Origin: Boletus sp. NGJ
Lineage: Eukaryota > Basidiomycota > Agaricomycetes > Boletales > Boletaceae
Length of the DNA stretch: 64,000 nucleotides
Reading direction: 5' to 3'
Assembly (NCBI GenBank): GCA_019096195.1
Contig: JAGTXK010000036.1
Coordinates: forward strand, 1 to 64,000
Positions 10 to 58,167 of the stretch are shown here, piece by piece; within the stretch, counting starts at the first letter, position 1; every line of letters begins with the position of its first letter. The translations under genes and the position numbers were made by a program. The notes under the pieces were generated by a model. The model saw only the letters and a list, made by a program, of their open reading frames with translations, was not told the origin of the DNA and ran no database searches.

Positions 10-1173
10 ATGTCTAGAGTCGACATTGACAAACTCGTCCAAAAGCTCGCTGACCTTACTCAGGAACGCGATAAGGAAAACATCACAAAGAAAATCGCCG
101 ATCCTGGGAAATGGGACGGTACAAGGTCATCATTCCGCCCTTGGTGGATAAAGCTCCAGCTCTGGGTTGACGCCCAGAAATGGAAAAATAACAAAATCAT
201 GGACATCGCGGTCCTCTCCCGTCTCGAAGGAAAAGCGGAATCCTTCGCACAATTAATCATGGAGCACTACCTAGATGAGGAAGCTACCATCGAGATGGAT
301 GCAAACGGGGTTCTGCAACCGGCAAAAGGAGCCGCTGCTTGGCCTACTTGGAACAGGTTACAGGAGCAGATCAAAACTCACTTCTGTATCGATACTTTGG
401 CCCACGAGTCACTAAGGAAACTCGAGGCCTTAAAACAAAATGGTCACCCTATTGACCTGTTCCTACAACGATTTGAGATCTTAAGGAAAGAGTCGTACAT
501 CGACGACCACCACGCAGAAGTCCTACTGAAAAAGGCGGTAGACTACAAAATCTATGAACGTTCTTGTTTGAATAGCCCCGCCCGCAATTTTGACTATGAA
601 GATCTAGTCATAAATTATAGGACAATAGGCAGAGCATTCGAACAGATCGTAAACGAGCGTGGTCCCCCTCACAGATCTCAACCCCCACGTTCATCCTTCC
701 CTCCTCCCCGTGGGCAACCCCCACAAAACTCTTATCGTCCAACCTACACGGCAGTAGGAACACAACCGGGTCGCGGTGCGCCCATGGAAATAGGTGTCCA
801 GCAGGCTGGACCATCTAAGGAAACCAGAACCTGTTTCCACTGTGGCAAACCCGGCCACATAAAACCTAACTGCCCGACGAACCCTTTCAAACGGACTGGT
901 CGTCCGCCCATGCAACGCCAGATTTGGGACTGGAACCAAGGCTCGTATATCGAGCAATCTCAGGGAGAAAATGAGTATCCCTCATTTTTTAATGAAACCC
1001 AATCTCGCGCTTACACACAACGACCACTCCCGCAACCTCCCGTAGCTATGATGGCACCAAGCGTAGCAGCAAGGACTTATGTTTCTGACGAAGCAGAAGC
1101 ATATTATCGAGACAAATTTGAGGTAGACGCAAAAGCCAGAGCTGCACAGGCTTTAAATGGACAGCGCCAATGA
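10..1173 (+). CDS. gag region of Ty3/Gypsy copy A
   Basis: Open frame of 387 codons encoding the structural protein of the element. The N-terminal half resembles the retrotransposon gag domain; a proline/arginine-rich linker follows, then the zinc knuckle CFHCGKPGHIKPNC at about residues 275-288. Its end overlaps the start of pol by an ATGA, an arrangement that fits termination-reinitiation in this family (inference). Fossil element part; no host role is suggested. Confidence 0.9.
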   Translation: MSRVDIDKLVQKLADLTQERDKENITKKIADPGKWDGTRSSFRPWWIKLQLWVDAQKWKNNKIMDIAVLSRLEGKAESFAQLIMEHYLDEEATIEMDANGVLQPAKGAAAWPTWNRLQEQIKTHFCIDTLAHESLRKLEALKQNGHPIDLFLQRFEILRKESYIDDHHAEVLLKKAVDYKIYERSCLNSPARNFDYEDLVINYRTIGRAFEQIVNERGPPHRSQPPRSSFPPPRGQPPQNSYRPTYTAVGTQPGRGAPMEIGVQQAGPSKETRTCFHCGKPGHIKPNCPTNPFKRTGRPPMQRQIWDWNQGSYIEQSQGENEYPSFFNETQSRAYTQRPLPQPPVAMMAPSVAARTYVSDEAEAYYRDKFEVDAKARAAQALNGQRQ

Positions 1174-4100
1174 GTACAGAGGGAACTCAGTGGCAAGAAC
1201 TTTCTTCATCTTTTTCATCTTCTTTTACAACATGTACAAGTACCGATTTCCCTATCTCCAATCTCTCCGCTGTACTACGTAAATTATCTATGAAATCTGC
1301 GAGGGCGTCTCAACTGAGCGTGGCACCAGAATTAAGTGTACTTAATTCCCTCGTGAAACAACAAAAAATATCGAATATATATAAACCCACAAAGGTCACG
1401 TTAAACCAAGCATCTACGCTTTCCTATGGAGGGGAATTCTCCCTTGAAACCATAGTATCGTGCAACGTTAACGGCCAGTGGTCGCGTTACCGTTTCCAGT
1501 CCCTCCTGGATTCGGGAGCGTCGCATACGTTTATTGATCAGGACTATGTAAAAAGACACGGAATACCTTTTTATACCATCGACAACCCCATTAAGATACA
1601 TAACGCTGACGGTTCGGAAGGAGCAATCAGACCAATCCGTCATGCGGTAACCCTGATGGTGGAAATCGAAGGACACTACGAAGTTATAGACGCGTACATA
1701 TCTAAATTAGGAACTCATCGAATGATCATCGGGTATGATTGGCTATATCGTCATAACCCTGACATCGATTGGGTAAAACAAACAATTACGTTTCCTCGAT
1801 GTACCTCATACTGTAAAATTATGGGCCTAGGACCCACTTCCTCTTACAAGCCGGCTCAACTACGTACAATAGAAGAAGAACTAAAAGAAAAGGTTCCATT
1901 AACTTATCACGAATTTTTAGATGTCTTCTCGGAGAAAGAATCTCAAAGGATGCCTTTACGAAAACACTGGGATCACGCAATCGATCTTAAAGAAGACTTC
2001 ATCCCCAAGAAAGGACATGTTATTCCCCTTTCGGACATCGAGATGGAAGAAGTCAGAACGTTCATCGAAAAGGAAGTCAAAAAGGGTTATGTCAAACCCT
2101 CAAAATCTCCACAGACATCTCCCGTCTTCTTCATTCCCAAAAAAGACGGCAAAAAACGAATGGTCATGGACTATCGCTATTTAAATGAAGGAACAATCAA
2201 GAATTCCTATCCACTCCCTTTAATCCCGCAATTAATTGATCGACTCAAAAATGCGGACTTATTTACGGCCATGGACCTCCAATGGGGATATAACAATGTC
2301 CGTATCAAAGAAGGCGATGAATGGAAAGCGGCATTCGTCACCCCTATTGGAGCTTATGAACCTACCGTTATGTATTTCGGTCTTACGAACTCTCCTCCCA
2401 CATTCCAAACTATGATGAACGATATATTTAACGACATGTATGCCGTAGTCGTCATCTACATCAACGACGTGATGATATTTACCTCAAAAAAGACAAAAGA
2501 ACAACACGAAGAAGTTGTAAAGGAAGTTTTACGTCGTCTCCGCGAAAACGACCTTTACGTAAAACCAGAAAAGTGTACCTTCTCGGCAACAAAAGTAGAT
2601 TTCTTAGGGATGGTGGTATCTAAAGAGGGGCTAGAAATGCAGTCGAAGAAAGTAGCTGGGGTCATGGATTGGCCAATTCCTACTCGCTTGAAGCAACTTC
2701 AAGGCTTTCTCGGACTCTGTAATTATTATAGAAGATTCATAGAAGGCTTCGCGCAAATCGCACGACCCTTGAACGATCTTACCAAAAAAGACGTTCCATT
2801 CAAATGGGGTCCGAATCAACAAGAAGCATTCACCAATCTAAAAAGAAAATTCACGGAAGCACCACTTCTCACGTATCCTAATCGCGATCAAGAAATGCGT
2901 GTGGAAACCGATGCTTCAGACATCGCCATGGGAGCAGTGCTCTCCACATTATGCAATGATGGTAACTGGCGACCAGTCGCCTTTATCTCTCACTCTTTTG
3001 ACAGCGCAGAGCGCAATTACCCAATCTACGATAAAGAACTGCTTGCAGTAATACGTGCATTGGAAGAATGGCGTCATTATTTAATAGGTCACGAAGGATT
3101 TGAAATCTGGACCGACCATAAAAACCTTGAATATTGGAAGAAGCCTCAAACACTTAGCGGACGTCAAGCACGTTGGCACGCGCTTCTTCAAGAATTTAAT
3201 TATTCCTTCGTATACAAACTTGGATCGTCCAATGGAAGAGCCGATGCTCTATCTCGACGACCAGATCACGGCGACGCAGTTGTAGATCACAATCAAAACG
3301 TCACCGTCCTTCCTCCTTCTATATTTATAAACCACGTTTCTCTCTCTTCCGATCTTATGACAAAAATACAAAAAGAATCTAAAAAACATAACGTCGATGC
3401 TATAAACAATTTCCTTTTCTACTCAGAACTTAATCTATTCAAAAACGAAAAAGATCAAATCTACGTACCTGAATCTCTACGTACAGAAATCATTACATTA
3501 TGTCATGATTCGCCTATTGCAGGACACGGCGGTCATTCTAAAACTATACATACTCTTTCTCGATATTTCTCGTGGCCAGGAGTCACAAAGGACGTAAAAA
3601 TCTATGTAGATCACTGTCAAGTGTGCGCCCTCACGAAGGGTAAGCAAAATGCACCGGCAGGAAAAGTTATTCCTCTTCCCGCGGCAAAAAGACCATGGGA
3701 AGACCTATCAGTAGATTTCATCACAGGCTTACCGCCATCACAATCTTTTACGGCTATCTGCGTTGTTGTGGATAGATTTTCAAAAGAAGTTATTTTTATA
3801 CCGACATACGATACTTGTTCTTCGAAAGATCTAGCTATCCTATTTAGAGACCATGTCTGGTCAACACATGGACTTCCCTCTACTCTCGTATCAGATCGAG
3901 GACCACAATTCGTTTCTGCTTTCACACAAGAGCTTTGTAAGCTTCTTGGTATAAAACAAAAAATCTCTACGGCATATCATCCGCAAATGGACGGACAAAC
4001 AGAATGCGTTAACCGAGATCTCGAGCAGTATCTCCGCGCATATGCCGGAAAGAAACAAAACGAATGGGTCGATTGGTTGAAACTAGCCCAATTCTCTCAC

Positions 4101-4838
4101 AATAACACCATAACTACGGCTACCGGAGAAATCCCGTTTAAAGTAACACGAAACTACATACCGCGTATGGGTTTCGAAAGGAATCTCACGGGTTTTGCAG
4201 AAGAAATTGGGTGAAATCATAAGGAGATTGAAGAAGTGCTGGAAGCAACACGAGAGAGGATGATCACCTCTTCCGATAAAAAACGATCTACAGCACCCGA
4301 ATATTCTATTGGCCAGCAAGTCTGGCTTTCTACAGATAAATTAAAACTTCCTTATACGGCGAAAAAACTAACTCAAAAATGGATTGGCCCTTACGTTATC
4401 ACTCGGGTACTTCCAAACGCCGTAACGCTCAAACTACCTAATTCGGTTCACATCCATCCAACTGTGAACATTTCTCGCATCAAACCTTATAGAGACACGC
4501 TGCCTGGACAGCCTAAATCTCGACCAGATGCTGTAGAAATTGATGAAGAAGGAGAAGAGCAGTTCGAAGTTGATTATATCGCCGCTTCCAGGTTGAAGAA
4601 AGGCAAAATAGAATATTTGGTTCATTGGAAAGGTTACGACGAAACCGATCGAACCTGGGAATCAGAAGAAATTCACATCACTGCACCAGATGCAGTAAAT
4701 GATTTCCATCGTCTTAACCCTTCCGCACCACGCAAGCTTCGTGGTCTATCGTTATCAGCTTTCGCTTCTTTATTCACTCCTTATGAAAATTTCACCGAAC
4801 AAGAAAAAACAACGACTCGCCTGGAATTCGAGTCTTAA
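1170..4838 (+). pseudogene. pol region of Ty3/Gypsy copy A (PR-RT-RNase H-integrase-chromodomain)
   Basis: Seen in order: an aspartic protease (LLDSGASHTFID, near 1505-1540), the reverse transcriptase (about 2050-2650), RNase H (ETDASDIAMGAVL near 2910), the integrase zinc-binding region (about 3500-3640), the integrase core (about 3700-4100), and a chromodomain near the C-terminus (YLVHWKGYDETDRTWE, about 4615-4665). The chromodomain is thought to steer chromoviruses to marked chromatin (family knowledge). About one break separates the last part of the region from the rest, so it is listed as a fossil. Confidence 0.9.
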
Positions 4839-7458: not shown

Positions 7459-10400
7459 TTAGGACTCGAATTCCAGGCGAGTCGTTGTTTTTTCATTTTC
7501 GGTGAAGTTTTCAAAAGGAGAGAATAGCGACGCAAATACTGATAATGATAAACCACGAAGCTTGCATGGTGCAGAAGGGTTAAGACGATGAAAATCTTGT
7601 ACTACCACCAGTGCAGTTGATATAATGTCTTCATATTCCCAAGTACAGTCTGTTTTGTCGTACCCTTTCCAGTGAATCAAATATTCTAGTTTGCCATGCT
7701 TTAATCTAGAAGCAGCAATAAAATCAACCTCATATTGTTCTTCCCCTTCTTCATCAATTTCTATCGCGTCTGGTCTAGATTTTGGTTGACCTGGCAACAT
7801 ATCTTTGTATGGTTTGACGCGAGAAATGTTCAAAGTGGGATGGATGTGAACTGAGTTGGGAAGTTTCAATGTAACAGCATTTGGTAGGACATGAGTGATA
7901 GCATATGGTCCTATCCATTTTTGGGTAAGTTTCTTTGCTGTATACAGAAGTTTTAATTTATCAGTTAAAAGCCAGACTTGCTGGCCGATAGAATATTCTG
8001 GTGCGAGTGATCATTTTTTATTGGAAGAGGTGATCATCCTCTCTCGTGTAGCTTCTATCTCCTGATGATTTCATCCTATCTTGCTTGCAAATCCCGTGAG
8101 ATTTCCTTCAAAACCCATATGCGGTATGTAGTTTCTTGTGACTTTGAAAGGAATCTTGCCAGTAGCTGTAGTAATGGTATTGTTATGCGAGAATTGGGCT
8201 AACTTCAGCCAATCTACCCATTTGTTTTGCTTCTTTCTGGCATATGCACAAAGGTATTGCTCTAGATCTCTATTAACGCATTCTGTTTGTCCGTCCATTT
8301 GCAGGTGATATGCGGTAGAGATCTTTTGCTTGATTCCTAAGAGCTTACAAAGCTCTTGAGTAAAAGCAGAAATGAATTGGGGTCCTCGATCGGATATCAA
8401 AGTTGAGGGTAGTCTGTGGTTTGACCATACATGGTCTCTAAATAAAACTGCTAAGTCTTTTGAGGAACAGGTATCATATGTAGGTATAAAGATAACTTCT
8501 TTAGAGAATTGATCAACAATTACGCAAATAGCCATGAATGAATGTGAATTTGGTAGGCCTGTGATAAAATCTACCAAGAGGTCTTCCCACGGTCTTTTTG
8601 CCGCAGGTAGAGGAATGACTTTTCCTGCCAGTGCATTTTGCTTACCCTTCGTGAGGGTGCACACTTGGCAGTGATCTATGTAATTTTTTACATCTTTTGT
8701 AACTCCTGGCCACGAGAAATAACGAGAGAGTGTGTGTATGGTTTTGGAATGACCACCGTGTCCTGCTATCGGTGAATCATGGCATAATGTAATGAGTTCT
8801 GTACATAAGGGTTCTGGGACAAATATTTTGTCTTTTTCGTTTTTGAATAAACTAAGTTTAGAGTAAAAGAGGAAATCGTTTATAGCGTCTACGTCATATT
8901 TTTTAGATTCTTTTTGGATTTTTGTCATAAAGTTTGAAGATAAAGAAATATAATTTATAAATATAGAGAGAGGGAGGACAGTAACATTTTGATTGTGGTC
9001 TATTACAGCATCGCCATGATCAGGTCGTCGGGATAGAGCATCAGCTCTTCTGTTTGAAGACCCTGCCTTGTATACAAATACATAGTTGAATTCTTGAAGA
9101 AGAGCATGCCAGTGTGCTTGTCTACTGCTAAGGGTTTGGGGTTTCTTCCAGTATTCAAGATTCTTGTGATCAGTCCAAATTTTGAATCTTTTGTGACCTA
9201 TAAGATAATGATGCCATTCTTCTAGCGCCTGAATTACTGCAAGTAATTCTTTATCATAAATAGGGTAATTGTGCTCTGCGCTATCAAAAGAATGAGAAAT
9301 AAAGGTGACTGGTCACCAGTTACCATCATTGCATAACATTGAGAGCACAGCTCCCATGGCGATGTCTGATGCATCAGTTTCCACACGCATTTCTTGATCG
9401 CAGTTTGGATATGTGAGAAGTGGTGCTTCCGTGAATTTTCTTTTTAAGTTTGAGAATGCTTCTTGTTGTTCGGGACCCCATTTGAACGGAACGTCTTTTT
9501 TGGTAAGATCATTTAGAGGTCTTGCGATTTGAGTGAAGCCTTCTATGAATCTCCTATAATAATTACATAGCTCAAGGAAACCTTGTAGTTGTTTTAGTCT
9601 TGTAGGTATTGGCCAATCCATGACCCCAGCTACTTTTTTTTCTTGCATTTCTACCCCCTTCTTAGATACGACCATACCCAAGAAGTCTACTTTATCAGCA
9701 GAGAAGGTACACTTTTCGGGTTTTATATAAAGGTCATTCTCGCATAAACGGCATAGAACTTCCTTTACAACTTCTTCGTGCTGTTCTTTAGATTTCTTGG
9801 ATGTAAATATCATAACATTGTCAATATAAATAACAACTACAGCATACATGTCATTGAAGATGTTGTTCATCATAGTCTGAAAAGTGGGGGGTGAGTTTGT
9901 GAGTCCAAAATACATAACTGTTGGTTCGTAAGCTCCGATGGGGGTGACGAAGGCTGCTTTCCATTCGTCACCTTCTTTGATGCATACATTGTTGTACCCC
10001 CATCGAAGGTCCATTGCTATAAATAAATCTGTGTTCTTGAGTCTATCAATTAGTTGCAGAATAAGAGGGAGTGGGTAGGAATTCTTGACAGTTCCTTCGT
10101 TTAAATAACGGTAATCCATTACCATTTGTTTTTTGCCATCCTTCTTGGGAATGAAGAAGATGGGAGATGTCTGTGGAGATTTAGAAGGTTTGACATAACC
10201 TTTCTTGACTTCCTTTTCGATAAACATTCTAACTTCTTCCATTTCGATGTCTGAAAGGGGAATAACATGTCCTTTCTATGGAATGAAGTCTTCTTTGAGA
10301 TCTATTGCGTGATCCCAATGTTTTCATAAAGGCATTCTTTGTGATTCTTTCTCCGAGAAGACATCTAAAAATTCATGATAAGTTAGTGGAACTTTTTCTT

Positions 10401-11111
10401 TGAGTCCTTCTTCTATAGTATGAAGATTAACTGGTTTGTAAGAAGAGGTAGGGCCTAGTCCCATAATTTTACAGTATAAAGTGCAGCGAGGGAAGGTAAT
10501 TGTTTGTTTTACCCAATCGATGTCAGGGTTGTGGTGATACAGCCAGTCATAACTGATGATCATGTGATGGGTTTCTAGTTTTGAGATATAAGCATCTATT
10601 ACTTTGTAATGTTCTTGTATTTCCACCATCAAGGTTACCGCATGACGGATGGGTCCGATAGCTCCTTCCGATCCGTCAGTGTTATGTATCTTGATAGGGT
10701 TTCGATATCATAAAAGGGAATACCATGGCATTTAACATAGTCCTGATCGATGAAAGTATGCAACACTCCCAAATCCAAGAGGGATTTGAATCGGTAACAT
10801 GACCACTGTCCATTGACGTTGCATGATACTATGGTTTCGAGTGAGAATTCTCCACCATAGGATAACGTAGATACTTGGTTCAATGTGACTTTTGTGGGTT
10901 TATAGATACAAGATATTTTTTGTTGTTTTGTAAGGGAATTAAGCACACTTGTTTCCAGTGCCACGCTCAATTGAGACACCCTTGTGGATTGTATTGATAA
11001 TTTACGTAGAACAGAAGATAGGTTGGAAATTGGAAAATCGTTACTAGTACAGTTTGTAAGAGAAGAAGAAAAAGATGAATGTTCATGCTGCTGAGTTCCC
11101 TCATCACTCAT
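7459..11111 (-). pseudogene. pol region of Ty3/Gypsy copy B
   Basis: Protease, reverse transcriptase, RNase H, integrase and chromodomain can all be followed at amino-acid level against copy A, in the same order. The region is a fossil with several breaks. The chromodomain (EYLIHWKGYDKTDCTWEYED) lies near 7630-7690 and the integrase zinc-binding region near 8640-8780. Confidence 0.88.
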
Positions 11112-12262
11112 TGGCGCTGTCCATTTAAAGCCTGTGCAGCTCTGGCTTTGGCCTCCACTTCGAACTTATCTCTATAATATGCTTCGGCTTCCTCTGAAAC
11201 ATATGACCTTGATGCTACGTTTGGTGCTGCCATAGCGATAGGAGGTTGTGGTAGAGGTCGTGCCACGTAACTTTGGCGAGATTGGGATTCATTAAAAAAC
11301 GTAGGATACTCGTTTTCTCCTTGTTGTTGCTCAACGTATGAGCCTTGATTCCAATCCCAAACTTGCCTCTGCTGAGGCGGACAACTGGTTCTTTTGAAGG
11401 GATTTGATTGACAGTTGGGCTTAATGTGGCCTGGCTTCCCACAATGGAAACATGTTCGAGTTTCCTTAGAGGGTCCAGCCTGCTGAACTCCTATCTCCAT
11501 TGGGGTGCCACAACCTGGCTGTGTGCCTACTGCCATGAATTGGGGGTGGTACATTTGCTGTGGGGGTTGCCCACAGGGAGGGGGGAATAAGGACCTTGAG
11601 ATAAAGCGTGAGGTGTTGACAGGCGGTCCACGCTCCATCGCCATCTGCTCGAATGCCCTTCCAATTACTCGGTAGTTCAACACCAAATCCTCATAGTCAA
11701 AGAATCGTGATCTCTCGTAGATTTTGTAGTCTATGGCCTTTTTTAGGAGGATGGTTGCGTGGTAATCATCTATGTGGGATTCCTTTCTTAGTACTTCGAA
11801 TCTTTGCAGGAATTGGTCCACAGGATGATCATTTTGTCGTAGAGCCTCCAATTTCTTGAGAGACTCATGAGTGAGGGTGTCGATACAAAAGTGGGCCCTT
11901 ATTTGTTCTTGAAGCCTACTTCAAGTGGGCCATGCATTATCTCCTTTTGCTGGTTGCATGACTCCATTGGCGTCTGTCTCGATGGTAGCCTCTTCGTCCA
12001 AGTAATGCTCCATAATGAGCTGGGCGAAGCCCTCTGCTTTTCCTTCCAATTGAGACATGACAGCGATGTCCAAGACCTTGTTACTTTTCCATGTCTGAGC
12101 ATCAACCCAAAGATGCAGCTTAATCCACCAGACATGGAAGGTGGAGTGATTGCTGTTCCGTTTGCCGGGATCAGTGATTTTCTTTGTGACATTGTCTTTG
12201 TCACATTCTTGGGTGAGATCAGCGAGCTTTTTTACTAATTCATCTATGTCCATGTGAGACAT
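11108..12262 (-). pseudogene. gag region of Ty3/Gypsy copy B
   Basis: Matches gag of copy A along its length, including the zinc knuckle CFHCGKPGHIKPNC near 11420-11460. It abuts pol with the same short overlap as in copy A. Broken fossil. Confidence 0.88.
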
Positions 12263-23775: not shown

Positions 23776-25932
23776 TCACATGCAAGCTCGAGGAACAATG
23801 AACCTGTGATATTCCAGAGACCCCTGAAGATTGAGATTGATCGCCCACTTGTTGCGGCTAATTAAATGAGCTGTTGTGGCATGGCACATAATAACCAGAA
23901 AAAGACACACCGGGCCTGCTTCCTTTGCATCTGCAGTACCTTGTCCATTATCAGGAGCATCTTCGTTTTGACGGCTGGAATCAGCAGTCTTGGCACCCGA
24001 TTTACGCTGTAAAGTATAATGAGCCGCTGCATGCAAACCCGAGGAACAACAGACCTTTTTTCTGTTAGGGTTTCTCGCGGCTGACCGCTATGATACGTTG
24101 GACACAAGGCATTCGGAAAGAAGAACACTCACCGTCGCACCACGCGATGCAGCCATCCTCGAAGGTCTCTCATCTACTCTCGTCTGCGAGTGATTAGGTT
24201 GACGACCAGCAGGCAGACGCAGCTTTCCGGAAAGTTGATCACGCTCGCGCGAAGTGGGGTCCTCGTTATCCTTCTTGACCCACATTTTTCCCAATCTCTT
24301 GAACGCCGGAATGCGCCAATATGACTTAGCAGTATTAGGGTTTTTCTCTACACATGCCTCCGAAGGGGGGGTCACTGGTAGGGGACCTGACTGCTGCGGC
24401 GCGGCGTGCCCCAATGGCGATACCTCGTACCCACTAGAATGCGTCGAGGATGACAAGGATAGTGCCTCCGAAGGGGGGATCACTGGTAGGGGATCTGACT
24501 GCTGCGGTGCGGCGTGCCCCAATGACGATACCTCGTCCCCACTAGAATGCGTAGAGGATGACAAGGATAGTGCCTTCAGCAGGGTCAACACACAGGAAAG
24601 AGAATAATGTAGTGATCACCAACCACATCATAGTTGAATTGAGGAGCGGGATTCCTCGGCAACTCCTCGACCTATATCATCGTGAGGACTCGTGTCAAGG
24701 GAGAAAAGAATGAACTGATACCTCGAGGAGATCATCATCGCCGTCTCCGCTGTGCGTCTTGGGCTCGACTGAACTCGATTTCTCAGGCTCCTCCTGGTGC
24801 ATGTACACTCTTCCAGTGACGACGGAATGACGAACTCCTACTGGATTAGAGTCACGTGGTCTATCGTCCTCGGTGGTCAAAGGTTGTGCGTCTGGTTGTC
24901 CTGCCTAATGTAGTGTGTCAAAGTGGAAGGCATGATGGGGGTCATCCAGCATGCTTACATGGAAGGGACCATACATGTCCGGGAGGATGTTGCCGAGGTT
25001 ACGGATAATGACTCTCCTGTCACATCCAGTCGCAAGGTAATTATTATCCTGGGAGAGGGCAATCGAATCTATCCTTTGACTATCCTGAACGACCGTACCA
25101 ATCGGACCGAGTGTAGACGCATCCAAAAACGAGATTGTACGGTCTGCGAAGGTAGCGATGAATTTCCCGTTGCCGGCTAGAGCAATAGATCTGACGTCGT
25201 TGGGAATGTCCGATTCGACAAGCTGGGACCCACTGGACACGTCAAAAGACTTGATTTTCCTGTTGTGGGATGCAGCAAAAATTTGCCGCCCATCTCTTGA
25301 CCACGCAAGTGGAGTGGCCGGGGCCGACAAGGGTAAGGCGGTGTTGATGGTAATGATCCCATTACCGCTGTGACTGTCAAAGATGGAGATGGAACCACCG
25401 TAGCATGCAGTGGCAATGTGTTGGCCACTTGGTGAGAATTTGATTCCAGTGACATCGTCGTCGTGTTGGAGGGCGCCAACGGCGACTAATTTTTTGCCAG
25501 TGGTGAGACTCCAGATGCTCGCCTCCGCAGTCCCAGTGGCAAACCTAGTTGAGTCTCCGGAGATATCCACCGCAAGCACCGGCCCTGTCCCCTCCACGTC
25601 GACCACCTTTTCCTGTATTTTCGCGTCCCACACGCTTGCCCCCCTCACAGTCCCACATACTATCCACTTCTGATCCTTCGACACAGAAATAGCGCCCAAG
25701 TCTCGGGTTCCCGTTTGCTTCCTTACCTCTTGGCCGTCTGCGAGTCGCCATCGTAGAATTCCATCATCGCCCCCTCCGAAAAGATGCGCTCCGTCAGGGT
25801 GAAACGCCACTGCCCACACCGCACCAGAGCGGCCGGTTTCAAGAACTAATGTATGGTCTTACTGAATTGTCAACATAGCACAGTCACTCCTCAGAACCAC
25901 TACGCACCGGGCTTCAAGTTTGTCGACGACAT
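23776..25932 (-). CDS. WD40-repeat protein with tandem repeat tail, five exons
   Basis: Exons 25932-25908, 25845-24959, 24904-24722, 24573-24133 and 24006-23776; introns of 62, 54, 148 and 126 bp. All phases agree and the joined frame is 1,767 nt (588 residues). Start MSSTNLKP, then WD40 blades such as GAVWAVAFHPDGAHLFGG (residues about 15-32), DDVTGIKFSPSGQHIATACY (about 140-160) and GNGKFIATFADRTISFLD (about 230-250), about seven in all, forming a beta-propeller likely used as a protein-binding platform. The C-terminal third is polar and contains two 36-residue repeats, then a last exon with a short hydrophobic Cys-containing stretch (GPVCLFLVIMC) as found at the end of related mushroom proteins. 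Partner and pathway unknown. It is transcribed divergently from the GTPase gene. Confidence 0.85.
24357..24572 (-). repeat. 108-bp tandem repeat, two units, coding
   Basis: Units 24357-24464 and 24465-24572, in frame within the WD40 gene; each encodes 36 residues beginning ALSLSSSTHSSG and ending PPSE. Only a few bases differ, so the duplication is recent. Confidence 0.95.
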
Positions 25933-26156: not shown

Positions 26157-29100
26157 ATGTCATCTCCTCAATCGGAGGACTACTATGTCTCCATTTCGAG
26201 TAAATTACCCCTCCTCGCGTATCGTCCTGATCCGTTCAACGTAGACCAATTCTTTTCTTCATAGGTGTCGCTCTCAACGTTCGAGAGGAATTGGGCAGAA
26301 ATGTAGACCACATCATATTCCAGACTGAAACTGGAACATTTACAAAGGAGATATCGGTCCAAGTCTCCCCTGGTCGTGAGCATAACGAAGTGTTTGATCC
26401 CGCGATGTGAGACATCCAGTTACATCGACTCATGAACCTGACAAATATTTGTTTCAGTGAACTGTCCGCTCAGGACCGACTGTCTGTATCTGTACAGTAT
26501 CCATCACGGTGGCATGGGAAACATACTCTCGGCGTCACCATGGAACTGAACGAGGTCATGGCCAAAGCGCAAGTCGATACGCACGGGCAACAAAGTAAGC
26601 TATGCGGATTTGCTCTGTCTTGAACACATTTTACGTTGGCCTTTGAAAGCATCCTTATTCAAGTTACACAAGCATATCGAGGTCGCTATCAGCCTCTCTC
26701 GTCATTTGGCCGACGGTGAAAGTTCTCTCGATGCCCCGTTACCCCCTACCGCTGGCGAGCCGAACGCCAGCATCGGACCCATCGACGCCGCCGTGTCGAT
26801 TCCACAGTCCGAGGACACTATCCACATATCAAGTGAATCCTACTTCTCGCGTATCAACCATCGTAGACCAATTCTTTCTTCACAGGTATCGCTCTCGACG
26901 TCCGACAGCAATTTGGCAACACTGTAGACCACATCACATTCCAAACTGAACCTGGAAGCTTCAAAAGGGATATTGATGTCGAAGTTTCCCCTGGTCAAGA
27001 ACATAAGGAAGTGTTCGATCCTGTTCTGTGAGACATCCAGTTGCATCGAGTCGTGAACCTGAATTTCACCATTTGTTTCAGTGAACTGTCCCCCCGGGAC
27101 CAACTGTCCGTATTGATGGAATACAAATCACGGCGGTTAGGGAGACGTACTCTCCCCATCACCGTGAGACAGAGCGAAGTCGTGAAGGAAGCGCGGGACG
27201 ATGCACACGGCAATAGAAGTGAGCTACGTTACGTTCTTTCTTGAACACATTTAACCTTGGCTTTCAAAAGCATACATGAAGTTCCATAAGCATATCATGG
27301 TTTCTATGAGCATCTCTCGTGGTACTCCGTCACGGAGAGAAATCTCTACCATCGTTGAAAGTCCTCACGATGGTCCATTGCCCCCCAGTACCAGTGATAT
27401 CCTTCGCATATGCCCTCGGTGAGCGCTTCACGCTCTTTGGTCACCACATCAAGCTGATCGCTTGAAGCTTCCGACTGTTGCTTATAGGAAATGTACCCAT
27501 ACCTTTCCGCCCGAGAATGGCCGACCACTGACCCTCAAAACTTTCAGAGTGGTGTTGGGAAGTCTACCCTAATTCAAAAGGTATTCGGGATCCATGATGT
27601 GGTGGGTCTGCTCCTGCATACAACCATTACATTGGTAAACATTTCTGCCAGGACGTCTCTGAGGCATCCCGAGGACATGCGGACATCAACCGCGAATTCA
27701 TCGCAGCGGACAACGGGCTTTTTGTTCTCCATGACAGCGTCGGACTTGAGGCAGGAGAAAGTAAGAGCTTGGCAAAAGTCAAACAGTTCATTGACGGTCG
27801 ACGAAAACAGCAGCATGTGAAGGATAAACTGCACGCCGTTTGGTAAGGCGTCCCGTGCTGATCTGAATGAAACTGAAGCAAAACTGCAGGGTATGTCTTG
27901 CCGTTCCGTATGCCGAGGGACGGCTCCTTGAAGCAGGTGTGGAGGAATTCCTGCGAGACAGAGAGAAAATTCTGGGTAATAGTACGTATATCAGATGGTC
28001 GCGATCTATCAGCATCTGAAGATATCACCAACCTGGTAGTTCCGATCGTCGTTGTACTGACGAAGGTTGACCTGTTGGACGGGATGCTGTTGCAGACTCT
28101 GCGTAACGAAGGTGTCGAGTTCAAGAGCGTAGAGGAAGCGCAGCCAAAACTAGAACAACTCAGGTCCGAGTTTCTCGAGCAGTACTGCACGCAACCCCTC
28201 GTGCGAGCAGCAGGGCGGCGCGACATTCCACGCGTAGCCGTTTCTAGTATGTACCGCTTTGATATTTTCCCTTTTATCGGATTAATGGCATGGACAGCGA
28301 AAAGCGGATTCAGGCTGGAACCAACGATTTCCGAGCTCGTCAAGACCACAACCTCTGAGATCGAACGGTACATTAAAGCCGATCCAGCCTATGCTACGGC
28401 GGCCGAGCAGCCGAGCATCGAACGCAACGCGCCTTTGTATATCGCTGGAATGGCCCAGCGGGTCAGCATTGAAACAAAGGTGGATCTCACTATAGCGTAC
28501 GCCCCACTGGCATATTACCACTCCCAGCGCCAATCTTATATCTTTGTAGACTAGCGAAGAAGAGTAAGTCCTTGGCACTTCAGTGTTGTGGTTCTAAGCG
28601 ATGCCTAAGGATACTGGACGATCCTTGGCTCAAGCTTGAGATTTTCCGACGATAAAGTGAAAGAGAACCTGCTTGCTCCACATCAGGATATCATCCAGGT
28701 TTGGAATTTTAATGACCCGGAAATGGTGAGAAATTGTCCTACTTCATACTATGGTACTTGACGCTGCAAAAGGCCCTACTAGGTGACGCTTTCAAAGCAG
28801 CATTGCTGGAAACTTCAGATCTTGGGGTAGCAGACAATTCCAAGTCGTCGTAAGTTATGGTTTCATCCTTGGTTGCTTAGTACTGGTAGACCCTAACACT
28901 GACCATAGTCCAACTATTGCAAAACGCTTCATGACATACATTGCCGACCTGATCTACGTGATGAAGATCCTCATCATCATAGTACCGCAAGGATCCGTCA
29001 CTTCTCGAGACGTAGCCCTCGCATTGCAGGTCTACGAGGAATCAACGTATAGAACTCGTGTTCACTTGGAGATTAAAGATTTCAGTACAGACTTTACGAT

Positions 29101-29224
29101 GCTGCCCGGAAGACGCGACCGGGTTTTGGAGAAGCTTGAAATGCTGGTCAGACGATACAGTATTACTGACGAGGAGGTGTCACGTTTACGGGCTCGGATT
29201 GACGCAGCACAACGTTCCTCGTGA
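26157..29224 (+). CDS. Fungal P-loop GTPase with two tandem C2-like N-terminal repeats, many exons
   Basis: Exons resolved with agreeing phases: 26157-26199, 26265-26406, 26458-26594, 26650-26832, 26886-27027, 27082-27218, 27271-27418, 27468-27492, 27548-27598, 27652-27842, 27890-27981, 28040-28246, then from 28298; the last exons (28500-29224) are less certain. Residues 1-310 hold two copies of a beta-rich domain (VDHIIFQTETGTFTKEISV and VDHITFQTEPGSFKRDIDV, then ELSAQDRLSVSVQY and ELSPRDQLSVLMEY) that I read as C2-like. The GTPase part has the P-loop SGVGKSTLIQK (about residue 320), FVLHDSVGLEAGE (switch/G3 region), and LTKVDLLDG (G4). Late parts IIQVWNFNDPEM and a C-terminal helical region (28931-29224) are usual in this mushroom family. 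Cellular role unknown; membrane or stress signalling is a guess. Confidence 0.78.
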
Positions 29225-30439
29225 AAATGTGTCGGCGAGTTCCTAGTTGGACTCCCCATCGCAGCCAGTTCAAGTTGGTTGACGATCAAAGTTCTTTGGC
29301 TTCCATGGGGTTGACAGTTGTAGGTATTATACCTTGTAGCGACGCTCGATTGTATTCATGTATTTTGAATCACTTGAGCTGATCGAGTCAGTCTGATCCG
29401 CACAGGAGAGGAACGAACTAGTGCAGGTCGTCGCACTAGGCGAAGAAGCGGCAGCGAGGGAAGGGCAATGGGAAGGGGAAAGTTGTAGGTAGCTCGTGAT
29501 TCCAACGTACATTTAATTGGCAGTGGAGAATCGTTTGGATTGCCGGGTCATATGACAGATTCAATAGCTCGGTTCAGTGCACTGTAACACCACAGCAGCA
29601 ATGGCTGCGGGCGCAGACCAAGGCTCTAGATCGTTAGTGCCAGGAAAGTCGGAATCGGGCCAGTGAGTTCTGTCAATGTCGAGATCAGACAACCATTGAG
29701 TGCATTAGGTAAGTTTCAATACTCGAACTCGAGGTCCCGCGTCCATCCAGCGCTCGAACCCAGCGCCTTGCATGACCGATGGAGCGCTGTCTGAAAAGAC
29801 GCTGACCGGTGGAGTTTGAGGCGAAAGCGGACGTCGATGTCTCCGATGGAATGTAGAATGCGCGGAACCGAGTTGCGGCCTTGGAGACCGGATGGTTGGA
29901 GGACACGGCGAAAAGCGACCCGGTGCCATGCAAAAGCAGTGTCAACACACGACAGCGTTCCGTGCAAGGCTGGGGGTTAGGAGAGGTTATATCAGGTGAG
30001 GATATATATATGGGAATTCCTTGGAAGTTTGAGACGCTTGGTCGTTGGTGCCACTGACGATTAGATCCGCCTCACAAGTCTGGCAGGTAAGCCAGAAAGC
30101 CGCAAAACAGTGGCTACTATACTGCGTTCTCAGATTGCCACACTGACGTTGAATGGGATCCGGGCATGTTCGCATAACATTCCAAACTAAACCCGCCACA
30201 GGAGTGCGGGTGCTGCGGTTGTATTGGGTGAGCTTGCTGTAGGTCCTGCGCTAACTGGGTAATCAGATGGTGAACGCGGTAGCAACACTGGCAAGTGCTA
30301 CCAATTCGATCTGGTAAGATAGTACTTTCCATCCGGACTAGTGCGACGTCATACTAACCCTGCTACCAGCTGCATATATTCCTCGGCGTATAAAAACCCG
30401 TCAGAGATGGTTGGTATCCTGGACACTCAGATTTACAAC
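29225..30439. other. Intergenic region upstream of the kinase gene
   Basis: 1.2 kb. Several short overlapping open stretches near 29685-29967 on the minus strand have no recognisable features and are probably chance. A TATATATATA-like run at about 30002-30012 is about 430 bp before the kinase start. Nothing else seen. Confidence 0.55.
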
Positions 30440-33400
30440 ATGACCATGTCTGCCTCATCCACGCGCTCGCCCCGCCCAGCGACGAGCGTGGCTTCAGGCT
30501 ATCAGAGCTCTTCACCCCGACTTCCTTCTCCTCTCAATCCATCTCCCAATTCGTTCTCTCCTCTCCTCACCTCCGGGCAGACACCCCGCAACTCGCCCGT
30601 CGGTGAGATGTCCGACACCCTCTCCCCACTCAGAGAGCGTATCGACTCGGCATTGTCCACCTCTCCCCGCTCATCTCCTGGTGTCGGTCGTTCTCGCACT
30701 TCTTCCTTCTCTCGCTCCCCTGAGCGATCTCCCGTCATGACCATCCCTCTCCAACCACATCGTGGGTATGCACGCCATTCCAGTCCAAATAGCAGTCCGT
30801 TTGCACAGGGAATACCCTTCCCTAGTTCCTCTCCCCTTCTTTCTTCGTCTCCCCTCGCAGGTCCTTCCCAATCCTCCATATCCCAGAGTCCACGTCCCCT
30901 CTCGCCTGCTTCCAACAGTCCGAGGCAAGGCTCGCCTAGTGTACGTTGTTCCCCGCTCGTTTATGTGTGCGCGTTCCCTGACATCTCCATGTAACGCAGA
31001 CTCGTTCTCAGTTCCAACCCCGTCCTCTCCGTTCACCACCCCATCCCACCCCATCCCAGTTCCATCTTTCCCAAAGCTCCCTCGTTCAAATCATACCCTC
31101 GCCTCCACGTTACCCTCGTACCCAATCACTCATTCAACAATCCTTTGGAAACCCATATGCCGCACAGGCTGCTTCGTCTCCTCCAGGTGATCTGCGCAAC
31201 AGACACGTCTCTCTGGGTGCTGAATCGCGTCCGCATCCGTTCACGCGGGCAAGTCCCACGCCCGCTGATTATTCGTTTGCCCAGGACACATCATCCGTGA
31301 TCAAGGGAAATTCGACCCCTCTGAATGAAGCCCCCATCCGCTGGTGGGGTGGACGAAGAGGCTGGGAAGACGACTGGGACCATGTCGTGCAGCAGTCCCA
31401 GGCATGCAATCCCTACGCAACACACGGTGAACTCGACGGTACGATGGGAATGGGATTCGTCCAGCCCGGCTTTGAGAATCCGTTTTCGTTTCGAGACCGC
31501 CTTGGGCGTGGCGGGGGTGGTCCTGGCGCATTTCTGGACGAGGAGATTCGTGCCTCGTTTGATGGCGTCGGGGATGTAGGTGCTGGATTTGCGGATCCGC
31601 TGACCCCTAGCATTGTTCATGCACCGATGGGTGCCAATGCTGGCTATGAGATGGAGGCCATCCCTGTCCCTCGGGCTGTACCCGTCCCCATGGCACCCGG
31701 GTTAAATTCAAGGATACGGGCTGAGAGTCTTGGCTACGGTGAGGTGGACGTCGGACCACCGCTTGTCGAGGCGGGCTCTGATATGCAGAAAGCGCCAGAC
31801 ACTTTGACGCGCCACTCGTGTCTTGTTCATCTGCCCGGAAGCGCGAGTGGGTTTACTCCTAATGGAGTAGTGAGTAGATGCTTTTTTCTTGTGACTCTTG
31901 TAGTGGATCTCAATTCTTTGGCGCGCAGGTATCTGTACAAGGTCAGGAGCGCGGACATGGCGGACATGGACACGAACACGTTGGTGGGCGCAATCGCCGA
32001 TTCAGCAATGCATCGACGCACTCGTCGACATCGTATGCTTCGTGCATGTCTGGGCCATCGCAGTCACAGTCACAATCACTGTTGTTGTCCTCGTCGCAAT
32101 CTCACACGAGTACTTGTCCTTCCTTGTGTTCGCTCGGCATCGGAATTGAGGAGGCAGAGCGAGAGGGGCGCCGTTCAAGGACGTTTTGGGGGCGGAGGAA
32201 CTCGGGGAGCACTAGGAAACAACAGAACAAGGATTTGAGCCATGGTACCGGTGGGCACAGCGAGGTTGTCTGTCAAGGGTGCCAGTCTTCCCATTTGGTG
32301 AAGAGTGGCGAGAAGGGTGGGTTGGCGCACGTGGACGGTGTGGAAGGAGAACGCGCGGATGATGTCAAAGCAGGGGAACCCGTGGAGTGTCCAGATGCGG
32401 ATTCGAAGCAGTCTGCTACACACGCACACGAGAAGGATACAGTGAAGCATGGATCCCTGTTCTTCCGCATTGGCCTGAAGCACGGAGACGTGTCGAACGA
32501 CCAAGCCCAACGAGAGGGGTATATGAGGGCTGAAAGGGTGTGTCTTATTCGCGGTTGCGTTTTATCGGTAATTAAAGAACCACAATCGTAGTGCGTTTCG
32601 TTGGCGATCACGTCTATTTTGTCGGCCAAGACCATCGCGATGATGTCGCCCGTTGGCGACGCGCTCGTCAGAGCGAAAGAATCAGGTATGTTATTGAATT
32701 GATTTGCAGGGATGTGCTCCTCCTGAACCCGTGTCAGCCATGTTCGTCGGTCACGAACTCGCACCAGTGGTCAGAGATACGCTCTCTATATCCACTGACG
32801 TTCTTTCGCTCGCCTCTCTTCCCGGTCTCGAAGAGGCAGCCAAGGCATTATTGAGCGTTTGGGACGCGTGTCAAAAGGTTGACGTGAGTGCCTCGTTGGT
32901 TTGGACCCGCATATATTCTCCTTCTGATCCTCTACTTCAAAAAGACGAACCGTCTATCTTGTTTACGTCTCGCAGAGCGTTCTGCAACGCTCCTCTATTC
33001 TGTTCGGTGCGAGATTGATGAAGCAGGCGTAGACACTGCCATGGCTCTCGCTGAGCCTGTTCAGCGGTTGTGCGCTGCACTTGTCCAGGTGCGTCGACAT
33101 GGACCTGGATTGTTCCTTTTTTTTTTTAATGGGGGGGGGGCTCGACTGACGTTGTCTTGCAGATCCGGACGTTTCTCGAGACGCAGCTCCACCGACCGTT
33201 TTTGAAGCGGTACGTGAGGAGGGAGGAGATTGCGAGGGACCTCGTGGCGTGTAACGAGGCGATCACGGATGCTGCTTCGAGGTTTGGGGTGAGTCTCTTG
33301 CACTCCCTTTGGTTGTGTGCCAGCTGAGCGACTGGGCATTTACAGAACTCAGTTCAAATCCGCACATTTCACGCGGTGTGCTCGGCGGCGAGCGAGTCAA

Positions 33401-36400
33401 GGCGGTTCGCACAAGAAGCGCAGGCGCTACTGACGTTGGACCATCAGATGATTCAAAGGCAATATGCAATGATATATGAGCAGCAAGTGCAGTCGTGGCG
33501 ACAAGAGGTGGTGACGGAGTTGTCAGGTGATAATGGCTTGGGTCTCAGAACGGATGGCGCATCGGTGAGCATGAACCGGCGTCCACGTCGGGCCGTGGGC
33601 GAGGAAGGTGATTGCGATGGCGGTGGAGGTTATTTGACACCTCCACCTGCATATGGACCGCCATCACAGCCGCCACCACCGACGATGGCAGGTATGTCGA
33701 CCAGGTCTGGATCTGGACAAAACACGCCGACACCGTCCATTCTGTCGGGGTATCCATCTGACGCGACGGATCCCAGTGTGTCTGCACCGCCCACGCCAAC
33801 GCCGACCAGAGCCACGTTTGTCGTAGAGGAGACCAATACTACAACCACGAAGATGGAGACAACGACCAGTCACCCAGCATTTCCGATGTGCGCGCTCGCG
33901 GAGCTGCATCGGGCCCAAGATTCGGTGGATGCGGCTGCGGACGAGGCTGCCCTTCGAGGGACGTTGGCGGGTGCGTTGGACGCGCACAATGACGTGGGGA
34001 TGGTTCGTTGTCTGCAAGTCGCTAGAGGTGAGATTCCCGAGGCTACCGAGACGCTCCGGCGGGTGCTGGGCGTGGGTGTGAAAGAGGACGAATGTATCGC
34101 ATTGGAACGCGGGCTGCATGGTGTGGATACGGGAAATACCGAGCTCGATAGGAAATTCATGCAGAGTGGGATCGAGGCAATGACGAGGCTGACGAGTGTT
34201 GTCGTGGAGCAGCCTCGATGTGAGGGGGAGCAGGTGGGACTTGGCAAAGGCGCTGATGCTGGCGTTATTGGTGCGCCGGAGTTGCCAAGCTGGACGATTA
34301 CGAGGTATCTCACTGTGATCTCTGCATGGACCTCTGCTGATACACGCACGTACGCGTGACCGACAGATACGAGGTTGTTCGAACGCGCAAAATTGGCGTC
34401 GGGTTCTTTTCGGACGTGTACTTCGGCCATTGGCGCAAACGCTCTGTTGTAATCAAGGTGTTGGCACATAGTGTGTCGCGGGAGGCATTTGTGCGCCACA
34501 TCGAGTTGTGGCACGCGCTCGACCATCCGAACGTGTTGCCGTTGTATGGTGCAAGTAGTGCGGTCGGGGAGAAGCCGTGGTTCTTTGTGAACAAGTTTTG
34601 TAGTGGAGGCAATCTCGTGGCTTCGCTCAAGCGCACGAGGGTGGTGGGGGTGACGATGGTGGGAAGTGGGGCAACGGTGCGTGTGGATCCGTTGAGGTGT
34701 ATGCATGAAATTGCCAAGGGAATGGCGTATTTGCATGGATGTGGGGTCTTGCATGGGGATCTCAGGGTGGGTGGATTTATATATGTACTACATTGGTGTC
34801 GGTGGCTGACCATCCTTTGACAGGCGGCGAACGTGCTGGTGGACGAGGACGGGCGGTGTATTCTCTCTGATTTCAGCCAGTGTGAGATCAAGTCGGAAGC
34901 GCATCAGTCATGTGGGCAGCCTGAGCCACGTGAGTGACTGACAAGATCGTGTCTACATACGTGGAAGCTCACGTTGCCTCCCCTCGTAGATCTCATTCGA
35001 TGGAGGGCACCAGAGATGCTGATGGGCGATAACCGGCCAACAAACGCTGCGGATGTGTACGCGTTTGCAATGTGCTGCGTCGAGATACTCGGCATGGGTG
35101 ACCTCCCTTGGGAGACGTTGGACGACAAGACCATCCATGAGCTTGTGTTGGGTGAGTTGCACCGATTTTTGATGAAGATGACGGTCGACGTTGATGGTGG
35201 TGTCGCTGTAGACAAGAATGAGCGTCCACTGATTCCGATGCTCACTGGGTATGTCGAGGTCGTCGACGCGGTTGCGAATGTGGTGCACTCGTGTTGGGTT
35301 CGCGAGCCTGATCGCCGGCCGTCGTTTGCAAGCGTTGCTGCCTTGCTGGAAGAAGTTTGGATACATCAGGGTGACCACGCTTCGACGCCGATGATTGACA
35401 CCGGGTCGGCATCTATCACGTCGACAGCGTCTTCAGCTGCCGACGAACAGTATGAGACTGCCGTTGAGAGTATGACGACTGACATTGAGGAAGAAAACAT
35501 GGATGGTATGATGGACGTGCCGTTGACCAGTCCCGGACCAGTGCTTGGGAGTGATAATGTGGCTCGTCCTATGGTTCGCATAGAGGGCACGCAAGTTGCG
35601 TCGGGTGTCCTCAATCACCAGGACAAGGATATGCCGACATCTACTCCGTTGAACGGATTGGATCTCGACACAAGAAACGAAGAAACCTATCGCCTCCTTG
35701 TGGGATCGAGCCATGCATTCCATAGTTCACGTGAGTTTGTTTCTCTGAAGGCGTACGGGATGCTGAACCAGAATGACTTGGTTTCCAGTGACGCTTCCTC
35801 TGTGGTCCCCGACACGCGTCGAACTCGGGGCAGTTGGATACCATTCTAAGCCCAAGGGCGAGTTTATCACGTTGTTCAATGCGATGGACCCTCTCCAGAG
35901 TTGCGAGGAGCGACTCCGTCGCTTGCCGTCCATGTATGGGTATGGCAAGTTTGAGGTGCAGAAGCGGGAAGACGGGAAGCGGAACGTGGCACAGCGCGGT
36001 CTCGACGCCATTTCCGTATTTTTGACGTTCAAGGCGCGAGGCGATCGGTCGCATCCGTACGTGTTCGTTTCTTGAGAATTGTCGCGGTACTAACGAGATG
36101 AGTCGACTAGGGAACGAATCGCGCGACAGTATACGTTTCCCCTCGTGCAAGGGAAGCCGTGGGCGAATCTGTGCGTGGAAAAGACGGTGCACCGGTACAT
36201 GGATCAGTTGGAGGCACCCATGACATGGTTCAAGCAGCACGTGGACCTCATTCTGGAAGTGTATGCGCCACGCCATGCGATTCGAAAGAAAGACTTGATT
36301 CTGGGTGAGTAACCCTTTGTGCGGTCGTTTGTCGAGTTTGACAAGTGCTTTTCCTCTGCAGTGGTTGGGACGTTGGATGCACCAGACTGGGCGGTATTTG

Positions 36401-36663
36401 TCTCTGACGATCATTCCGATGGTCGGGCACAATTCAACGTGTTTGCGGGTCGGGAGAAGGGCGAGCCATGGGGTATGTATACCTTGGAACAGGCGGTCAA
36501 GACTGGGAACGCTGGGGTGGGGCGATGGGTGGACGTGGGCCAGGGGACATTTGCGAGCAAGGCGTCGTGCGTCACGCTGGGTGGTCACGATGTTGCAGGT
36601 GATACGGTCATGTTGGCAGGGCTGCGGTTTGAGGGAGGAATGGAGATGCCGACGGTGATGTGA
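30440..36663 (+). CDS. TKL-type protein kinase with MLKL-like helical bundle and a C-terminal fungal domain, 14 exons
   Basis: Exons 30440-30940, 31000-31869, 31929-32537, 32592-32685, 32738-32883, 32945-33088, 33163-33288, 33346-34304, 34367-34766, 34824-34929, 34990-35730, 35789-36056, 36111-36304, 36362-36663. All phases agree: 5,460 nt, 1,819 residues. Residues 1-650 are Ser/Pro-rich and low complexity. About 690-900 is a helical region (SLPGLEEAAKALLSVWDAC, then RPFLKRYVRREEIARDL) like the four-helix bundle before many mushroom TKL kinases and in MLKL. The kinase domain is about 1150-1440: glycine loop GVGFFSDV, VVIK lysine (about 1180), LHGDLRAANVLV, WRAPEML. The DFG position reads DFS. 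Residues about 1566-1819 form a separate conserved domain of unknown role (YTFPLVQGKPWANLCVEKTV). ATGs at 30407 and 30446 are alternative starts. Likely a signalling kinase; substrate unknown. Confidence 0.87.
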
Positions 36664-56572: not shown

Positions 56573-58167
56573 CAGTGGCTCAAAAAAGTGTCCCAATGTT
56601 TGACTATTTTGCAAAGACTTGACATTTGCAAAAGAACCAAAAGGCATTAGCCCTAACCCTTGCTAAGCCATTGATAGCCCTACTCCTTGCCCTGAAGATG
56701 AGCCCTTAGTCATATAATTTGGTTGTCATGGCACTGAGATATAGCCATATTAAAGTGACATGTTATTGGGACACTTTTTTGAGCAACATTTCTATTCTTC
56801 AATTTAGTACTTTGTATGCCCTCCCTTTGCTTTTATCACTGCCTCTAGTCTTCTAGGCATACTCTCTATCAATCCTTGACACTCCTCAACCTCTATCTTC
56901 CCCCACTCCACTTTAATTCTCTCCCAAAGCCCCCATACTCTTTTTGGTGGTGTTGTATAGCTATTGAGTTTTTTTTTGAGGATTTGCCAGAGATGTTCAA
57001 TGGGATTAAGGTCTGGAGATTGTGCTGGCCAGTCAAGAAAATTGATCCCTTGAGATTCCAGCCACTCCTTAACTCTTTTAGAGGTGTGCTTGAGGTCATT
57101 AGCATGTTGAAAGATAATGCTCTCTTCAGGAATTCCAGAATTTTCCATGGAAGGAAGCAGATTATCCTCCAAAATGGAGACATACTGCTCAGCATTCATC
57201 CTCCCTTCAACCTCTGCAAGAATCCCCACTCCACTCCAACTCATGCATCTCCAAACCATCAAGGAACCTCCTCCAAACTTTACTGTTCCCTGAACTTCCT
57301 TGTCTTGCAAAGACTTTCCTGCCAATTTCCATACATACTTCCTTCCATCTGACCCAATCCTGTTGATCTTGGTTTCATCTGACCATATAACCCTAGTCCA
57401 GTCCTCCACAGTCCAATGTTGATGCTTGAGAGCAAAGGCTAGCCTATATTGCCTATGCTTCACAGACAAGAGTGGCTTCTTTTTCTTGACTACAGCCTTG
57501 AGAGATGCAGACTTGAGAACATTCCTAACAGTTTGAGCAGAGACAGGAGAAGAGAGAGCAGAATTGATGAGATGGATAGCCTGGACAGCATTTTCAACTT
57601 TGCCAGAGGTAATACTAGAGACAATTCTCCTTTTATCAGTAGGAGAAAGTTTAGAAGGACATCCTAATTTGATGTTTTCCTTGCCTGGGTGGATCTCCTT
57701 GATAACCCTGGCCACAGTAGACTTCCCCAGACCAGTTTGGAATGATATTTGCCTAGTAGAAAGGCCAGATTCAGAGAGAAAAAGAATATTGGCTCTAGCA
57801 GAGGAGGGAGTGGATTTCATAATGAAGTAGGGTTGGCTGAACGGTATCTCTACTCTTTATACCATTTGGAGTTATGTAAGTGACATAATCAGACAGAGTT
57901 GAAGCACAGCATCCATCAGAACCTTATGTTATTTACTAAATGATAGTTGATAATATCAGGGTCAAATAAGTGTCTCAATGACATATCCTTTTAATATGGC
58001 TATAACTCAGTACCATGACAACCAACTCACATGACTAAGGGCTCATCTTCAGGGCAAGGAGTAGGGCTATCAATGGCCTAGCAAGGGTTAGGGCTAATGC
58101 CTTTTGGTTCTTTTGCAAATGTCAAGTCTTTGCAAAATAGTCATTGGGACACTTTTTTGAGCCACTG
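56573..58167 (-). mobile_element. Tc1-like DNA transposon (inner), 1,595 bp
   Basis: Ends CAGTGGCTCAAAAAAGTGTC and its reverse complement, with TA at 56571-56572 and 58168-58169. The inverted repeats are about 210-225 bp and roughly nine-tenths identical. Each repeat contains at its inner edge a reversed partial copy of its own terminus (ATTGGGACACTTTTTTGAGC at 56767-56786; a diverged one near 57965), so each end could fold on itself. Inserted into the transposase of the outer element. Confidence 0.95.
56804..57820 (-). CDS. Tc1/mariner-type transposase, uninterrupted but with an altered catalytic residue
   Basis: 338 codons, ATG at 57820 to stop at 56804, no intron. Catalyses cut-and-paste transposition at TA in the family. 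An N-terminal homeodomain-like/paired-type helix-turn-helix region (STRQISFQTGLGKSTVARVI, residues about 21-40; GCPSKLSPTDKRRIV, about 54-68); first catalytic Asp in RVIWSDETKIN (about residue 149); FGGGSLMVWRCMSW; third acidic residue Glu in SPDLNPIEHLWQILKKKL (about 280). The family's second Asp is in QQDNDPKHTS; here the motif reads QHANDLKHTS, so that Asp is Ala. The protein is therefore probably inactive though the frame is open. It is the only intact transposase frame in the AT-rich part. Confidence 0.92.
   Translation of the reverse strand: MKSTPSSARANILFLSESGLSTRQISFQTGLGKSTVARVIKEIHPGKENIKLGCPSKLSPTDKRRIVSSITSGKVENAVQAIHLINSALSSPVSAQTVRNVLKSASLKAVVKKKKPLLSVKHRQYRLAFALKHQHWTVEDWTRVIWSDETKINRIGSDGRKYVWKLAGKSLQDKEVQGTVKFGGGSLMVWRCMSWSGVGILAEVEGRMNAEQYVSILEDNLLPSMENSGIPEESIIFQHANDLKHTSKRVKEWLESQGINFLDWPAQSPDLNPIEHLWQILKKKLNSYTTPPKRVWGLWERIKVEWGKIEVEECQGLIESMPRRLEAVIKAKGGHTKY

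Follow-up and report, generated by a model that had tools for sequence, protein, structure and literature searches.

The plus strand at 30440-36663 raises two questions: whether one gene there joins an MLKL-like helical bundle, a kinase domain and a further C-terminal domain, and what a protein so built might do. Coordinates refer to the window, the whole stretch of 64,000 nucleotides from Boletus sp. NGJ that was analysed; papers are cited by PMC number, and statements resting on them extend to the accessible portions of their texts. The gene at 30440-36663 is real. As read from the sequence, it most likely makes one long protein that combines an MLKL-like bundle, a kinase altered at some key residues and, at its end, an uncharacterised domain. 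This three-part layout had been put forward in the original prediction, and the sequence supports it, the MLKL-like label through a profile match that falls slightly short of the cut-off. To the accompanying suggestion of a possibly undescribed protein it must be added that fungal bundle-kinase proteins (HELL with kinase or pseudokinase domains) are already mentioned in the available part of a 2025 review (PMC12881547), so the bundle-kinase kind is known.

The gene has 15 exons, all of whose joins are in phase; the 5,400 nt encode 1,799 residues, and the sole stop is the terminal one. An open, phase-consistent spliced frame on this strand had been predicted correctly, but with 14 exons, 5,460 nt and 1,819 residues, the segment 35152-35211 having been kept as coding. 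Keeping that segment alone restores exactly the 5,460 nt and 1,819 residues. It is the sole intron of the 14 that adds no stop when retained, and for this reason it was mistaken for coding sequence. Retention would insert 20 extra residues into the kinase lobe, between TIHELVL and DKNERPL. Because the additional 60 nt are a consensus intron within that lobe, we rejected the 14-exon model.

Thirteen of the 14 intron donors read GTNNGT and one reads GTATCT; the acceptors are YAG in 13 cases and AAG in one (intron 32884-32944). Both introns singled out in the original prediction, 34930-34989 and 35731-35788, begin with GTGAGT and end in YAG. Upstream of the ATG at 30440 lies TATAAAAA (30389-30396). 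A second in-frame ATG is found at 30407, and the start position of the gene is therefore not certain. Features of the gene are collected in Table 1.

Table 1. Features of the gene, in window coordinates, with the basis of each call
Feature	Coordinates	Strand	Basis
Disordered Ser/Pro/Gly-rich N-terminus, residues 1-660 (exons 1-3)	30440-30940, 31000-31869, 31929-32537	+	Open frames in phase; composition
MLKL-like helical bundle, residues 661-891 (exons 4-7 and start of exon 8)	32592-32685, 32738-32883, 32945-33088, 33163-33288, 33346-33528	+	Pfam match
Pro/Thr-rich linker, residues 906-1008, then helix-prone stretch, residues 1009-1130 (within exon 8)	33571-34243	+	Composition; crude helix propensity
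TK/TKL-type kinase, residues 1143-1422 (end of exon 8, exons 9-11, start of exon 12)	34282-34304, 34367-34766, 34824-34929, 34990-35151, 35212-35360	+	Pfam match
Intron overlooked in the original prediction	35152-35211	+	60 nt, GTGAGT...TGTAG; open in frame if retained
Ser/Thr/acidic linker, residues about 1425-1545 (rest of exon 12)	35365-35730	+	No stops; best codon score
Intron carrying the fusion	35731-35788	+	58 nt, GTGAGT...TCCAG
C-terminal domain, residues 1546-1799 (exons 13-15)	35789-36056, 36111-36304, 36362-36663	+	Codon score

The N-terminus had been described as 650 residues rich in Ser and Pro, and we find about 660 such residues (S 16.2%, P 10.5%), with G at 10.3%. Codon use favours the gene frame in exon 3, where it is the best of the six (0.119 per codon). 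In exons 1 and 2 the gene frame scores -0.138 and 0.001 per codon and other frames of the six score higher; these two exons rest on openness and phase. The Ser/Pro composition may explain their low scores. Within the gene model, certainty is lowest at the far N-terminus.

Residues 661-891 match the Pfam family PF22215 (MLKL_N) at 26.5 bits (E 5.2e-6, curated cut-off 27), the match covering residues 732-854; in a longer protein of 1,139 aa the same family scores 22.7 bits (E 7.7e-5, cut-off 27). In a shuffle control on residues 661-891, MLKL_N was matched by none of nine sequences, and three of the nine weakly matched other families (best E 0.0085). The bundle had been predicted at residues 690-900; its probable helical character and its likeness to MLKL are supported, the latter by a match just under cut-off, and its limits have been redrawn. 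An alternative acceptor, which makes intron 5 94 nt long and loses TNRLSCLRLAE, was rejected: with it the MLKL_N match is gone at E up to 0.1. That loss supports both the MLKL-like label and the unusual AAG acceptor of intron 32884-32944.

A crude estimate gives several segments within residues 661-891 a high helix propensity. The bundle opens with CVSLAITSILSAKTIAMMS, the most hydrophobic 19-mer of the whole protein (mean 1.5), two windows in the kinase being nearly as hydrophobic (1.49 and 1.31). A PDB sequence search with the bundle returned nothing at E up to 10, and no PADLOC profile matched it. Part of the bundle was also searched against IMG/VR, a non-fungal collection in which the scan reaches close relatives only, and no relative was confirmed. 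A sub-threshold NCBIfam match of the bundle to a hydrogenase subunit (E 0.062) was taken as chance. A Pfam scan of residues 906-1130, downstream of the bundle, gave no match.

The profile match and the hydrophobic first segment both suit a cell-killing fungal counterpart to MLKL, in which phosphorylation or a partner signal would free the bundle to permeabilise the plasma membrane in non-self recognition or parasite attack. We nevertheless consider such a killer rather unlikely. In the model the bundle is internal, some 660 residues preceding it where MLKL has its bundle N-terminal, and this speaks against its being simply a copy of MLKL; the killing domains described in the available texts of PMC10197012 and PMC12881547 act through an N-terminal helix. 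There is an in-frame Met656 (ATG 32523) five residues ahead of the hydrophobic first segment, in what we judge to be a poor start context. A shorter product from Met656, which would carry an N-terminal bundle as in MLKL, is possible.

On sequence grounds the identity of the kinase domain is certain: it matches PF07714 at 160.6 bits (cut-off 23.1, E 6e-47) and PF00069 at 98.2 bits. Among PDB sequences, the best 60 of 2,231 matches are tyrosine kinases; a Src-Abl ancestor ranks first (E 4.9e-30). Of the key residues, K1180 (the ATP lysine), D1281 (the catalytic Asp), N1286 and D1299 (the Asp of DFG) are kept, and an APE motif is present. HGD (H1279-G1280-D1281) stands in place of HRD, a form common in mushroom TKL kinases, and DFS (D1299-F1300-S1301) in place of DFG, the serine being S1301 as had been predicted. 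His1194 aligns in both alignments inspected with a Glu of Src-type kinases that we take to be the alpha-C Glu, and Glu1196 follows two residues on. A His at the alpha-C Glu position together with DFS is unusual for an active kinase. Catalysis may be weak, yet the kinase does not look plainly dead.

These residues bear on the killing reading in both directions, since changes at three key positions would suit a switch better than an enzyme, whereas the lysine, the catalytic Asp, the Asn and the Asp of DFG are intact. They bear likewise on a plainer account, in which the protein would be an ordinary TKL-like signalling kinase, active in mushroom development or in responses to stress; the bundle would then be no more than a scaffold for dimerisation, and the C-terminal domain would serve localisation or act as a substrate. 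The catalytic residues are largely kept, as this account would have it; the His at the alpha-C position and the DFS speak against it.

Three motifs, DL(R/A)A(A/R)N, P(I/V)(K/R)W(T/M)APE and GXR(M/L), are given for tyrosine kinases in the accessible text of PMC3937382, and all three are required. Here DLRAAN fits the first, HLIRWRAPE is without the Pro and the T/M of the second, and NERP replaces the third, so that the complete set is absent. The same source describes the FslK group of Agaricomycetes, many TK-related kinases without the TK-specific residues and with a Pro at the position of the third motif. The present kinase is like them in being TK/TKL-related, in its NERP and in the absent Pro of the second motif. 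It differs from them in that DLRAAN fits the TK consensus, though not in the 'AARN' form, and in its large extra domains, which are rare among FslK. The abundance of FslK kinases favours the ordinary kinase, but in the part of PMC3937382 available just 16 of 241 members carry extra domains, and we regard this account as unlikely.

Whether the C-terminal domain belongs to the same protein turns on the linker and on the intron at 35731-35788. Across 35365-35730 the gene frame has no stops, whereas each of the five others has 2 to 9, and its codon score is the top of the six (+0.13 per codon). Sixteen stop-free GT-AG joins of 45-110 nt lead into the C-terminal frame; two of the 16 combine a GTRNGT donor with a YAG acceptor, and both of these start from donor 35731, one ending at acceptor 35788 and the other at 35833. 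A YTRAY branch-like motif is absent from intron 35731-35788, as it is from four others of the 14 introns. The open linker and the shared consensus donor uphold the fusion through this intron that the original prediction had proposed, and the joining of kinase and C-terminal domain in one product is well supported. A match to PF14070 in the linker (E 0.0088, 16.5 bits, cut-off 27) was taken as chance.

The same stretch could be read as two genes, a bundle-kinase gene that retains intron 35731-35788 and ends at 35849, and a C-terminal gene starting at ATG 35773 or ATG 35884. Both ATGs are in the C-terminal frame, and the unspliced kinase frame does run open to the stop at 35849. Two such genes would overlap on the same strand or leave hardly any space for a promoter and a terminator; besides, the donor and acceptor of the intron match consensus, its join is in phase, and the linker is open and best-scoring in the gene frame as far as the donor. 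Linker openness, codon score and the consensus joins led us to reject two separate genes as a strong rival, and we hold that arrangement to be very improbable. A separate short transcript with ATG 35773 or 35884 is conceivable.

The C-terminal domain, with the peptide quoted for it in the original prediction, is present and now numbered 1546-1799 (254 residues). Its codon score is +0.348 and that of the kinase +0.325, both regions lying within the training set. The domain had no match in Pfam, NCBIfam, PADLOC or plasmids at E up to 1, and a PDB search up to E 10 was likewise empty. In IMG/VR and GTDB genomes, which are non-fungal and where the scans reach close relatives only, no relative was confirmed. 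The nulls in IMG/VR, GTDB and plasmids say nothing about fungi, because none of these collections is fungal; the domain may be one that mushroom proteins share. It is the unusual part of this protein.

Known systems share parts of this architecture. In the accessible portion of PMC9815663, which counts 600 basidiomycete MLKL-like sequences in total, models of BaMLKL have an additional N-terminal helix; the BaMLKL and fungal HeLo-like regions resemble the present one in having an MLKL_N-matching helical region with an extra predicted helix ahead of the core match. That set is based on NLR proteins, stand-alone proteins of at most 400 residues having been searched in addition, whereas here the bundle lies inside a long protein and before a kinase. 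The fungal HELL-kinase proteins likewise place a bundle and a kinase-like domain in one protein; in the available text of PMC12881547, where the comparison is by description and no sequence is given, no C-terminal extra domain is mentioned for them. Animal MLKL, as the reviews describe it, and the plant MLKL Pm13 (PMC10951266) share the order of bundle, then kinase-like domain. Unlike them, the present protein has an internal bundle, an extra C-terminal domain and about 1,800 residues, and it retains the ATP lysine, the catalytic Asp and the Asp of DFG. In the open-licence literature we found no description of a three-part protein of bundle, kinase and C-terminal domain.

The assembly comprises 32.8 Mb in 141 contigs. 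No other copy of the bundle or of the C-terminal domain was found in it (the latter searched at E up to 10). With the kinase as query, the gene itself was the best hit, followed by other kinases at 28-33% identity. A tblastn search with the bundle and the C-terminal domain at 18 loci (12 places) with other kinases gave chance-level hits (best E 0.64 and 1.4, respectively); it covered about 1.5 kb of flank around each kinase, left out 12 further loci that are this gene, and is limited by the short flanks and by divergence. Identical kinase scores in the contig pairs C59/C127, C35/C50 and C10/C94 suggest duplicated or haplotype contigs. PF22215 matched nothing over the whole genome; it also missed the window's own exons, and such an exon-wise search therefore cannot count bundles here.

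That no second copy was found suits a conserved signalling gene, as the ordinary kinase would be, and is a point against the killing reading. So is the absence of NACHT matches on this contig. Elsewhere in the genome eight NACHT matches exceed the cut-off, all on other contigs, so that NLR-type machinery may exist, although three of 14 control genomes also score above the cut-off with that profile. A genome search for SesA found none at E up to 1. The suggestion that the gene might encode an incompatibility protein thus finds no direct support, given that no second copy was found and that the bundle begins about 660 residues from the N-terminus.

Several other frames occur in the window. A 317-residue open frame on the minus strand (24905-25858), some 4.6 kb away from the kinase gene, carries WD40 repeats (PF00400, 94.9 bits). 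Broken or intron-split plus-strand frames at 27488-29224 resemble a P-loop GTPase (GVGKST, TKVD) whose C-terminal segments are hydrophobic; their Pfam matches are weak and under cut-off (GTP_EFTU, E 0.088; RH1, E 0.0064). Long frames at 1122-4214 on the plus strand and 8071-11920 on the minus strand read as a Ty3-type retrotransposon polyprotein with reverse transcriptase, RNase H and integrase; the minus strand additionally has a zinc-knuckle gag-like frame. A 350-residue minus-strand frame at 56804-57856 reads as a Tc1/mariner-type transposase.

The reading we favour, and to which we give about an even chance, is that of a membrane-linked signalling protein in which a divergent kinase controls an MLKL-type bundle while the C-terminal domain receives or anchors a signal. 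The bundle would be the output module, oligomerising or touching a membrane, and the adjoining kinase would be the switch that holds or releases it. The C-terminal domain would take the input or bind a partner. The long Ser/Pro-rich N-terminus would act as a tether, as would the acidic Ser/Thr linker, and either might be phosphorylated. From the protein's layout and residues we infer the function of every module, including contact with a membrane, sensing by the C-terminal domain and a switch worked by phosphorylation or by the binding of ATP. Regulated membrane signalling seems to us likelier than straightforward pore formation because the bundle is internal.

Beyond this signalling protein one may imagine a necroptosis-like device within one polypeptide, with the C-terminal domain as sensor, the kinase, with its altered alpha-C, HRD and DFG positions, as ATP-binding switch and the bundle as a membrane executor that would be unmasked by cleavage or by a start at Met656. 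We think such a device distinctly improbable, but if it were true, sensor, switch and executor would lie in one gene and not be divided between an NLR and a separate effector. Basidiomycetes have many MLKL-like bundles, and a protein in which one is coupled to a kinase, as in the MLKL of animals and plants, would be a direct test case for necroptosis-like switching in mushrooms. The C-terminal domain, if confirmed in the same protein, would be a starting point for identifying the signal or partner of such a switch.
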